Shown: in pieces, positions 57,010-60,846 of the stretch | How positions within the stretch are numbered: the stretch's first letter is position 1 | How the letters are laid out: the number at the start of each line of letters is the position of its first letter | Assembly (NCBI RefSeq): GCF_025118155.1 | Contig: NW_026251393.1 | Span: forward strand, 372,001-436,000 | From: Cokeromyces recurvatus | Taxonomy: Eukaryota; Mucoromycota; Mucoromycetes; Mucorales; Mucoraceae | DNA length: 64,000 nt | Direction of reading: 5' to 3' | Made by a program: the position numbers and the translations under genes | The notes under the pieces: model-generated | The model's database searches: none | What the model saw: the letters and a program-made list of their open reading frames with translations, nothing else | Told to the model about the DNA's origin: nothing

Positions 57010-58663
57010 ATGGCTGCTGTTAAGAATATTTGTTGTATTGGTGCTGGCTATGTTGGTAACACGCCATCTTTTCTGTTTTCACTCCTATATGTGTTATTTA
57101 TGTGACCCTTTTTTTTTCTTGTTTAGGTGGTCCTACTTGTTCTGTAATTGCTTACAAGTGTCCGGATATCAAAGTCACTATTTGTGATATCAGTCAAAAA
57201 CGTATTGACGCTTGGATGTCTGATAAGCTTCCTATTTATGAACCTGGTCTTGAAGATATTGTCTTTGCTTGTCGTGGAAAGAATCTTTTCTTCTCTACTG
57301 ATATCGATAAACATATTCAAGAAGCTGATTTAATCTTTGTTTCTGTAAATACTCCTACTAAAAAATATGGTCTTGGTGCTGGTATGGCTGCTGATCTTGC
57401 GTAAGTACCTTATATAGAATAAATGAGTGGATAGAGGAAGGGGAGGGAAAGGATATAATAATAATTCGGAGCTTTATAAAGCAATAAGACTAAATGCTTT
57501 CAAATAGTTATGTCGAAGCCGCTACACGTCGTATTGCTCAGGTTAGTACTAGTTCAAAGATTGTTGTTGAAAAGTCCACAGTACCTTGTCGTACTGCTCA
57601 AAGTATGCGTGCTATCTTGGAAGCAAATAGCAGTGAGAATATCAAATTTGATATTCTTTCAAATCCTGAATTTTTAGCTGAAGGTACAGCTGTACAAGAT
57701 CTTCTTCAACCTGATCGTGTTTTGGTTGGTAGTCTTCAGACTGATTCTGGTAAAGAAGCTCAACAAAGACTTGTTGATGTCTATGCTCATTGGATTCCCC
57801 GTGAAAATATTATTACTACTAATCTTTGGTCTTCTGAGCTTTCAAAATTGGTAATTTTTTTTTTTTTTTTTTTTTTGCAACTTAGAAGGTGTTTAACAAA
57901 TCTTAAATTTTAGGCTGCAAATGCTCTTTTAGCCCAACGTATTTCATCTATTAATGCTTTATCTGCTGTCTGTGAGGCAACTGGTGCTGATGTGGATGAA
58001 GTTGCCTATGCATGTGGTCGTGATAGTCGTCTTGGTTCAAAGTTTTTAAAAGCTTCAGTTGGCTTTGGTGGCTCTTGTTTCCAAAAAGATATTCTTAATT
58101 TAGTCTACCTTTCAACACAACTCAATTTACCTGAAGTCGCTGAATACTGGAAGCAAGTTTATACGATGAATGAATATCAAAAGAAACGATTTGTTCGAAA
58201 GATTATTTCTACACTTTTCAATACAATTACCAATAAGAAGATTGCCGTTCTTGGTTTCGCTTTCAAGAAGGATACTGGTGATACCCGTGAATCTGCAGCT
58301 ATTACTTTAATCAAAGATTTTATGCAAGAAGATGCTCATGTAACAATTTACGATCCTAAAGTAGACCATGAACAAATCTATTATGATCTTTCTGAACCTG
58401 GTGTTGTTGATAATCGTAAGCAAATAGAAAAAAAAATTGAAATTTGTTCAAATGCCTACGAAGCTGCTAAGGGTGCTGATGCTCTTGTCATTGTTACTGA
58501 ATGGGACGAATTCCGTGAACTTGATTATAAACGTATTTATGATGACATGCAAAAGCCTGCTTTTGTATTTGATGGTCGTTTAATATTGGATGCTCATAAG
58601 TTAAGAGAAATTGGTTTCAAGGTTCATGTTATTGGTAAAAATGACCTTGAAGGCAGAGCCTAA
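57010..58663 (+). CDS. UGDH: UDP-glucose 6-dehydrogenase
   Basis: Exons 57010-57055, 57127-57400, 57508-57850 and 57914-58663 give 470 aa. It oxidises UDP-glucose to UDP-glucuronate with two NAD, in the cytosol. The N-terminal NAD motif is [48 protein letters not shown] and [17 protein letters not shown] follow. The catalytic cysteine lies in [10 protein letters not shown] at about residue 276, the same position as in animal enzymes. The C-terminal UDP-binding domain has [17 protein letters not shown] and VFDGRLILD. In Mucoromycota UDP-glucuronate feeds the glucuronic-acid polymers of the wall. The start is preceded by a T/C-rich leader with a CTT repeat (56936-56960). Confidence 0.97.
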
Positions 58664-58975
58664 AGTGTGTTTTTATTATTATTATTATTATTATCATGTA
58701 TACATCACAAAAATAATTCTCGCTTGTAAAGTTTCAAAGTGTATTTTTTTTTTTGTTTAATAAACTTGTTCTCATATAAACAGGTTTTTTCCGGGCCGGA
58801 GCTACCTTGTTTTGTTTTGTTTTGTTTTTTAAAGAAAAAAAAAATGAGGGCTTAATTTCATTTTAGAAAGAGGGAAGAATTGTAAAAAAGAGAAGGAAAT
58901 GTTGTGTGGGGTTCATATAAAAGTAAAGAAGATGTATCATGCAGCTATTCCTTTCACAAATTCGGTATAGCTATC
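58664..58975. other. Spacer between UGDH and eL24
   Basis: 312 bp holding an ATT repeat and AATAAA-like words after UGDH, a GTTTT repeat (58808-58828) and the eL24 promoter region. No gene is visible. The short GC-rich word TTCCGGGCCGGAGC at 58788-58801 is a small palindrome (CCGGGCCGG) in otherwise AT-rich DNA. Confidence 0.6.
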
Positions 58976-59734
58976 ATGAAGTAAAGATTTACAAACATCC
59001 ATCTGTTAGAAAAGGCAAATAACTCATATTTAAATTTTATATTAGGCTTGAGATTTGTTCCTTTTCTGGTCATAAGATTTATCCTGCCAAGGGTAAGACC
59101 TATGTTCGTGTTGATAGCAGGTACTTTTCTTCTTTTTTTTTCCTAATTAACTAAATCCTAATTTGCTTTTTTTTTTTCTAATAATCCTTTTTTTTTTAGA
59201 GTATGTCTTCTATAGATTAAAAAAAAATAAATGCTTAATCAAAGCATTTATCAATTTTAAGCATTATGAATTAATGTTTATTTTTATTTTAATAGACTTT
59301 CCGTTTCATCAATGGTAAGGCCGCTTCTTACTTTCTTCAACGTTTGAACCCTCGTAAGATTAGATGGACTCAAATTTATCGTCGTTTGAACAAGAAGGGT
59401 ATTACTGAAGAAGTTCGTAAGAAGCGTTCTCGTCGTACTGTCAAGCACGAGCGTGCTATTGCTGGTGCTTCTTGGGAAGCTATTCGTGCCAAGCGCAACC
59501 AAAAGCCTGATGCTCGTGCTGCTGCTCGTCAGGCTGCTATTGCCAAATCTAAGGAAGTTAAAAAGGCTGCTGCTGCTGCTAAAAAGGCTGCTAATCCTAA
59601 TGTAAGTTTACGAAGTATAAGAAATTACTATTTATGAGTACTAATCCCATATTTTTATATAGATTAATCAGACTAAGGTTAGCAAGCAACAAGCCAAGGG
59701 TTTTGCCCCTAAAGCTGCTCCCACTTCTCGATAA
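58976..59734 (+). CDS. RPL24: 60S ribosomal protein eL24, with a 1-nt exon
   Basis: Exons 58976-58980, 59046-59120, 59200-59200, 59296-59601 and 59663-59734 give 152 aa. The first coding exon is five bases (ATGAA), giving MKLEICSFSGHKIYPAKGKT, the eL24 signature. Body motifs are TFRFINGKAASYFLQRLNPR, KIRWTQIYRRLNKKGI, RSRRTVKHERAIAGASWEAI and RAKRNQKPDARAAARQ, then an Ala/Lys-rich tail. Between VRVDS-AG (59120) and ACT TTC CGT (59296) one base is missing for the reading frame. A TTTTTTTAG acceptor followed by A and then a consensus GTATGT donor at 59198-59206 supplies exactly one A, completing AGA (Arg) where relatives have Lys or Arg. The alternative is a one-base assembly error. Confidence 0.92.
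59200..59200 (+). other. Predicted 1-nt microexon of eL24
   Basis: The base A at 59200 is flanked by a polypyrimidine-AG acceptor and a GTATGT donor. The flanking introns are 79 nt (59121-59199) and 95 nt (59201-59295), both normal for this genome. Inclusion restores the frame and a family-consistent Arg codon. Confidence 0.65.
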
Positions 59735-60846
59735 ATTTGAATATGCTTGATATAAAGATATATATATATATAATATAGGTTCAATTCAGTTCTCTTTTTT
59801 TTTTGCAAATAAATCGACAGATAAAAATGAGTCAATTCAGTAAAGAAATATGATATTTATTTTGAAATTTCAACACACAATTTTTTATTAAACAATTCAG
59901 TTCTTTTTCTTTTTATTTATACCAGCAAATGTACGTAATGTCGACCATTTTATTTTGCGAGTATCGAGTTGAATGGTGAAAGGAATAAAATTGATTTGAC
60001 TGCTCATCATAAGTTATTGACTTTTCAGAGGATTACATTCATTTATGGATAAGGCATTTAATGCTCGCTCTACAAAAAATTAAAAGATAGTAAAATGAAA
60101 CAGATACGACTAGCTCAAATAGAAATCAAATCAACTAGAAATTAACATGTAGTTGTGAATAAATTAAGGCTGATTGTAGAAGATATATGTCGTTGGATAA
60201 GTAGATATGTTCCTATTGATCTTTTAAGGATACCGAAACAAAGTACGTTGGCTAGAGATGTGATTTTCTTTCTACTTAAAAAAAAAAAGGATTTAAATTG
60301 GGCAAAACCATCATACTACATTATTTGCCCATGATCGTCATAATGCTCAAGAGTGAGACGAGTCATAAAACTGTTCATCTCTACGCTTTTAATTTAAATT
60401 CAGAGTTATTTCGACTACAAATCTTATATTCAACTAAGCCCAGCGTCTATTTATAACAGTTAATAAGTCTAATTCATACTTCACAGTTGGTAGCATTGTA
60501 TCATTGAAGATTAGGTGAAAGGAAAAGGAAATATAATATGTAATAGTTTTTTTTTTGATTGCATCATAAGCTAATAATAATTATATTTATGCGAAGTTAA
60601 GCTATACGATAACTATAACTAACATTTTTCTTAATATTGCTATAATGTTCAGTTTATTAACTGCTTATATAGATTTCAATGGCTTTTTTGGCATTAGGTT
60701 AAGCTCTAATACCAAAAAGATGATATATCGTTTTTTCTTTTTCTCTTTTCTTTTTTTTTTTTTATTGTATCCATGTGTAAGCATTGATTAATATAAGCAT
60801 CGTTTAACAGAGGAATTAATTTTATAATAAACAAAAAGTCTTTTAT
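59735..60846. other. Intergenic, no supported gene
   Basis: A 1.1-kb spacer between convergent genes eL24 and the quinone oxidoreductase. It is AT-rich with a T run near 60745. No frame resembles a known protein. Confidence 0.6.

Follow-up and report, generated by a model that had tools for sequence, protein, structure and literature searches.

The gene for ribosomal protein eL24 of Cokeromyces recurvatus in all likelihood contains a real, constitutively spliced exon of a single nucleotide, an A at position 59200 of the 64,000-nt stretch of DNA analysed here (the window), lying between two ordinary short U2-type introns. As judged from the genomic letters, this base is needed for the reading frame, is flanked by ordinary splice sites and is shared by the three paralogs identified. 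Together with the deposited proteins of related fungi, this leads us to infer that the exon is old and lineage-wide.

Structure of the eL24 gene

The eL24 gene occupies positions 58976-59734 on the + strand (copy C62; Table 1), within the region 58500-60200 whose letters we read. The identification of the gene, the exon phases and the intron lengths of 79 and 95 nt given in a preliminary description of this DNA agree with our direct reading, and its proposal that a single A completes an Arg codon (AGA) was confirmed by reading and translation. The base that the frame lacks is supplied within 59121-59295, where the sequence runs TTTTTTTAG-A-GTATGT (hyphens mark the splice junctions), and a CTAAT resembling a branch point lies 18 nt before the end of intron 2. 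With the A included, translation gives a full eL24 of 152 aa, whose residues 1-66 match the Pfam profile PF01246 (Ribosomal_L24e) over positions 1-66 of 66 with 102.5 bits (cut-off 27). Exon 3 could not be extended upstream because TAG stands in frame directly before its ACT in all three copies of the gene.

Table 1. Coding exons and introns of the eL24 gene (copy C62), in positions of the window
Feature	Position	Strand	Basis
eL24 exon 1, coding part ATGAA	58976..58980	+	direct reading; equal 5-nt coding exon before intron 1 in both paralogs
Intron 1, GTAAAG...TTAG, 65 nt	58981..59045	+	direct reading; required for ATG AAG CTT GAG
eL24 exon 2, 75 nt, ending ...GAT AGC AG (phase 2)	59046..59120	+	translation; PF01246 match
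Intron 2, GTACTT...TTTTTTTTAG, 79 nt	59121..59199	+	direct reading, gene models
Predicted one-base exon (A), completing Arg codon AGA (residue 27) as its third base	59200..59200	+	splice-model enumeration; kept in paralogs
Intron 3, GTATGT...AATAG, 95 nt	59201..59295	+	direct reading, gene models
eL24 exon 3, 306 nt, opening with ACT (phase 0)	59296..59601	+	translation
Intron 4, GTAAGT...ATATAG, 61 nt	59602..59662	+	direct reading, gene models
eL24 exon 4, including the TAA stop	59663..59734	+	direct reading, translation

Just upstream, on the same strand, positions 58500-58663 hold by eye the end of another gene, whose product presumably resembles UDP-glucose 6-dehydrogenase. Between the two genes, at 58790-58808, lies the motif TCCGGGCCGGANSTWCCTT, which recurs at C6:218739-218757 (minus strand) and thus stands about 150-190 nt before the ATG of two eL24 copies, C62 and C6. 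The full pattern has 2 matches genome-wide against 0 for the reversed control, and it is a possible promoter element of these two copies.

Conservation in two paralogs

A search of the genome revealed two further eL24 genes, at C12:226054-226661 and C6:217942-218510, with one-base exons at C12:226224 and C6:218343 (C6 on the minus strand). At the equivalent place both paralogs carry TTTATAG-A-GTAAG or TTTTATAG-A-GTAAG, and in 3 of 3 genes exactly one base separates a canonical AG acceptor from a GT donor, in the form TAG-A-GTA(A/T)G. The three copies lie on three contigs, with pairwise dS of 0.33-0.55 and dN of 0.009-0.014. Between copies, introns 2 and 3 are 45-56% identical over all columns (8 bases cut from each end), and in none of the six comparisons (two introns, three copy pairs) did their similarity exceed the best of 200 shuffles, the closest being intron 3 of C62 and C12 (0.53 versus 0.54 for the best shuffle). 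Since the trimmed introns never beat the best shuffle, the motif TAG-A-GTA(A/T)G has been retained while its surroundings diverged. When introns of the three genes were simulated with a Markov model (20,000 draws each), YAGnGTAWG appeared in 0.04%, 0.42% and 0.08%, chances that are not independent as the three copies share ancestry; the presence of the motif at the equivalent place in all three genes is more than chance. A looser form of the motif occurs at six other places within the window. The tight form TTNTAGAGTAAGT showed no enrichment genome-wide (9 matches; 12 with the reversed control), a count that is no survey of such exons as this form fits only C12 among the eL24 copies and misses C62 and C6. 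None of the eight other tight-form matches, inspected by eye, was clearly a 1-nt exon, and in several a donor simply follows what resembles the end of an ordinary exon.

We also considered an origin of the two introns by tandem duplication of one. Within a copy, the likeness of introns 2 and 3 was equalled or exceeded by 2 of 300 shuffles in C12, 10 of 300 in C6 and 44 of 300 in C62; introns 3 and 4 of C6, at 17 of 300, nearly match its introns 2 and 3. The likeness of introns 2 and 3 thus slightly exceeds that of shuffled sequence in C12 and C6 but not in C62. We take it as low-complexity noise and do not favour the duplication.

The best match among the deposited proteins listed, P0001 of Cokeromyces recurvatus (Mucorales), equals the A-included product of the C6 copy at all 152 residues, and the gene model behind it may be based on RNA.

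Splice models across the junction

In each of the three copies we enumerated, across exons 2-3, the GT/GC-AG models that contain one or two introns no shorter than 35 nt, and counted those reaching the downstream frame. Single-intron models in the downstream frame numbered 11, 13 and 11 per copy, all giving products shorter than eL24. Two-intron models were far more numerous (165, 386 and 168 per copy); a full-length product came from 3, 7 and 3 of them and the eL24 sequence from exactly one per copy, that with the single A between both outer sites. Eighteen two-intron models are common to the three copies, and full length is reached only with the single A and both outer sites, so that among the enumerated canonical models common to the copies none other yields the full protein. 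The other full-length models exist in single copies and alter the junction residues; examples are one in C62 with a 5-nt exon and a GC donor, and one in C12 with a T exon. The latter is a second possible one-base exon in intron 3 of C12, AGTAAG-T-GTTTTA, which would keep frame and length; it has a weak donor, encodes Ser instead of Arg and is absent from the other copies. The five solved eL24 chains examined align without gaps across the junction.

When the A is omitted and exon 2 is joined directly to exon 3, the frame shifts in all three copies, and a stop follows after 43 residues, 254 nt upstream of the next exon junction. Retention of intron 2 gives 37, 27 and 27 residues in the three copies, and retention of intron 3 gives 31, 51 and 37.

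Deposited eL24 proteins of other fungi

The preliminary description proposed a comparison with other Mucorales eL24 genes. The two paralogs provide it directly and deposited proteins indirectly, and both support the one-base exon; the cross-species evidence consists of deposited proteins only, and conservation among homologous genes is therefore direct for the three paralogs and only indirect beyond the Cokeromyces genome. Three protein searches (the best 120 of 354, 2010 and 304 matches each) yielded 249 distinct clusters. The junction was scored as intact when it matched D-[SNGTA]-[RK]-x-[FY]-[RKHQ]-[FYLV], and breaks were sorted with patterns written for this analysis; taxon labels were set by hand from names. 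Among the clusters listed, the junction was broken in 43 of 62 from Mucorales, in all 6 from Umbelopsis and in 1 of 180 others, a group that includes unnamed metagenome proteins and whose one broken member (P0129) misses its N-terminus. An unlabelled, Lichtheimia-like metagenome cluster (P0247), counted apart, is also broken (1 of 1). An earlier, narrower classification had given 41 of 60, 6 of 6 and 0 of 54, respectively, and was widened because broken models score low and could be lost from matches ranked against a Mucorales query.

Exon 2 is absent or read in another frame in 16 of the 49 broken clusters of both orders (including P0088), a loss or misframing that could also be explained by the 5-nt first exon. 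In the remaining 33, exon 2 is preserved wholly or partly, and the break falls at the junction or close to it. Eight broken models (P0010, P0013, P0019, P0032, P0033, P0035, P0065 and P0084) run on as DSR-V-R/S/C, the coding of AG plus A followed by GTACGT, GTAAGA, GTAAGT or GTATGT, as expected if the exon had been over-extended through A-GTANG. Two (P0050 and P0089) contain R-L-S-V-S, the frame of direct joining; 11 miss the six residues that would be lost with a poor donor at -17, one misses the four that would be lost with a donor at -11, one (P0042) fits an acceptor 68 bases downstream, and the remaining 10 have other residues inserted or deleted. Many of these breaks take the ways that a one-base gap would force, with splice sites deduced from the protein.

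Two of the six broken Umbelopsis clusters show the -17 deletion and four lack or misread exon 2, which suggests weaker support there than in Mucorales. The junction is intact in the Mortierella-type and Rhizophagus clusters listed, except P0129, and this would fit an origin within Mucoromycotina. Of the 62 Mucorales clusters listed, 19 are intact, and some of these may come from genes without one of the introns. The arrangement is probably at least as old as the Mucorales ancestor and perhaps as old as the ancestor of Mucorales plus Umbelopsidales. Protein scans of genome contigs and of viral contigs found no relative at the DNA level.

Two side observations concern the annotation of these genes. 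In all three Cokeromyces copies the first coding exon (ATGAA) measures just 5 nt, and several deposited eL24 models, also from Mortierella relatives, have long extra N-termini (e.g., P0056, P0066 and P0074), of which so short an exon is perhaps the cause. The deposited Rhizopus delemar models P0039 and P0040 have a second domain fused to eL24, PF09415, which we take to be CENP-X. By eye, a reading frame ending in VEHLERILPQLLLDF and resembling part of P0039 and P0040 lies upstream of the C6 eL24 gene; the eL24 and PF09415 genes may be old neighbours, and the Rhizopus fusions may be annotation errors.

Alternative explanations

A base lost near the edge of exon 2 or 3 through an assembly or base-calling error would turn the region into one ordinary intron of 175 nt, and a frame that falls short by one base is what such errors classically leave. 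The same gap is found, however, at three loci on three contigs with diverged introns, each time with TAG-A-GTA(A/T)G, and this is also where the deposited models of many further Mucorales break, so that we regard an error as scarcely credible. The letters also permit a [D1,2] stwintron, with an internal intron ending at the second AG of TAGAG and an external donor in which TATGT follows the final G of exon 2, without any base kept: removal at AGAG-TATGT gives G-TATGT. Stwintrons do occur in fungi, according to the available part of PMC5639578. Nevertheless, this joining is out of frame, with products of 33, 33 and 31 residues; without the internal base the frame is not restored in any of the three copies, and we rejected membership in this class, whose probability here is negligible.

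Other canonical splicing that keeps the frame, either by one intron (e.g., from a donor at -17 or -11 to the acceptor at 59295) or around a different small internal exon, can draw on the single-intron models that reach the downstream frame, on the 12 of 49 broken clusters that lack the residues lost with -17 or -11, and on the additional full-length models of single copies (the C62 5-nt exon with GC donor and the C12 T exon). All the single-intron products are too short and lose junction residues that are intact in 179 of the 180 clusters listed outside Mucorales and Umbelopsis, whereas the other full-length models are not common to the three copies and change the junction residues. Moreover, such splicing leaves the conserved TAG-A-GTAAG unexplained and disagrees with P0001; we consider it very unlikely. 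The A could, alternatively, be a regulated exon whose inclusion or skipping tunes the supply of eL24, the skipped form being lost by nonsense-mediated decay. The stop created on skipping in all three copies would suit such a role, but it is a property of any frame-shifting exon, and the good intronic part of the second donor suggests constitutive use, which leaves regulation an improbable reading. A constitutive one-base exon therefore remains by far our preferred explanation.

Comparison with known single-nucleotide exons

The preliminary description referred to 1-nt exons in plants. That part stands: the available parts of two papers describe a single-nucleotide exon (A) in Arabidopsis APC11 (PMC4674806) and conserved 1-nt exons of plant APC11 and VPS55 whose splicing was shown by RNA (PMC4674806, PMC8831610). 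It has to be widened to Fusarium, where a single-nucleotide exon of CYP621A is reported in a paper that presents itself as the first such report from a fungal gene (PMC12940212). The plant exons and that of eL24 are alike in having one base between AG and GT, in being essential for the frame, in being missed by annotation and in having long been kept; the likeness extends to the conserved donor beside the exon, which in VPS55 is GTRAGT (PMC8831610). They belong to other genes in another kingdom, and their splicing is demonstrated by RNA whereas that of eL24 is deduced from the DNA; unlike what the available text gives for plants, the eL24 exon lies in a ribosomal protein gene and is kept in three paralogs. 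CYP621A resembles eL24 as a fungal gene in which the frame and a conserved motif force one base and annotation is mostly wrong, but its base is a G in AGGGT and not the A of the Cokeromyces genes; per its authors it is only rarely expressed, and the RNA evidence amounts to 18 reads (PMC12940212, available part). Mucorales are, in addition, far from Fusarium. The available parts of two further papers describe a single-nucleotide exon in placozoan mitochondrial cox1 (PMC5436844) and a regulated microexon in Trichoderma Xlr2 (PMC11121469).

Fungal stwintrons share with eL24 two adjoining short introns that need successive removal, but they keep no base between their parts; eL24 keeps one, and a stwintron reading shifts its frame. 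In animals, zero-length recursive sites consist of an adjoining acceptor and donor used successively within long introns, leaving no base in the mRNA. The eL24 acceptor and donor likewise adjoin, but one base remains and the introns measure 79-132 nt; we rejected a zero-length recursive site here, given that AG and GT are separated by one base in 3 of 3 genes and the frame requires it. Our search of the open-licence literature brought up no 1-nt exon reported for Mucorales or for any nuclear ribosomal protein gene. The eL24 exon very probably belongs with the known plant and Fusarium kind, its conservation and its host gene being the unusual features.

A possible splicing mechanism

Introns 2 and 3 would be removed successively by intron definition, to which their shortness (79-89 and 95-132 nt over the three copies) is suited. 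In spliceosome assembly, the factors reading an acceptor and a donor one base apart should overlap. As their recognition should thus not coincide, two successive steps are expected, with recognition of the upstream 3' site and binding of U1 at the downstream 5' site not together on the RNA. Intron 2 probably leaves first, since its acceptor is transcribed first, which would create ...AGCAGA-GTATGT before the removal of intron 3; the opposite order would give the same mRNA. The intronic six bases of the second donor (GTATGT, GTAAGT and GTAAGC) are good and its exonic three poor, with 5-6 of 9 positions matching CAGGTAAGT, against 7-8 of 9 for the first donor (GTACTT, GTAAAT and GTAAAT). Because the last three bases before the second donor are AGA both before and after removal of intron 2, its pairing with U1 should be independent of the order. 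Skipped transcripts, with exon 2 joined straight to exon 3, would be likely targets of nonsense-mediated decay because of the distance from their stop to the next exon junction. Guo and Liu argue likewise for successive splicing steps in APC11 (PMC4674806, available part). A more far-reaching scenario, in which the exon predates the split of Mucorales and Umbelopsidales, is kept in nearly all copies of one of the most active genes of the cell and, through nonsense-mediated decay and the ordered two-step splicing that its mutually exclusive splice sites impose, gates the supply of a 60S protein, has in our estimate a slim chance.

Significance

If the exon is used in RNA as predicted, the short-intron spliceosome of these fungi would handle a one-base exon at the rate of a ribosomal protein gene, and there would in practice be no lower bound on exon length, even for highly expressed genes. 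It would also explain the wrong junction in 43 of the 62 deposited Mucorales clusters among the matches listed, and it suggests a simple rule for annotation, namely to look for AG-N-GT within an intron wherever the phase falls short by one base. The three diverged copies of this genome, and probably those of many species, offer a natural series in which the sequences needed to splice such an exon may be tested.
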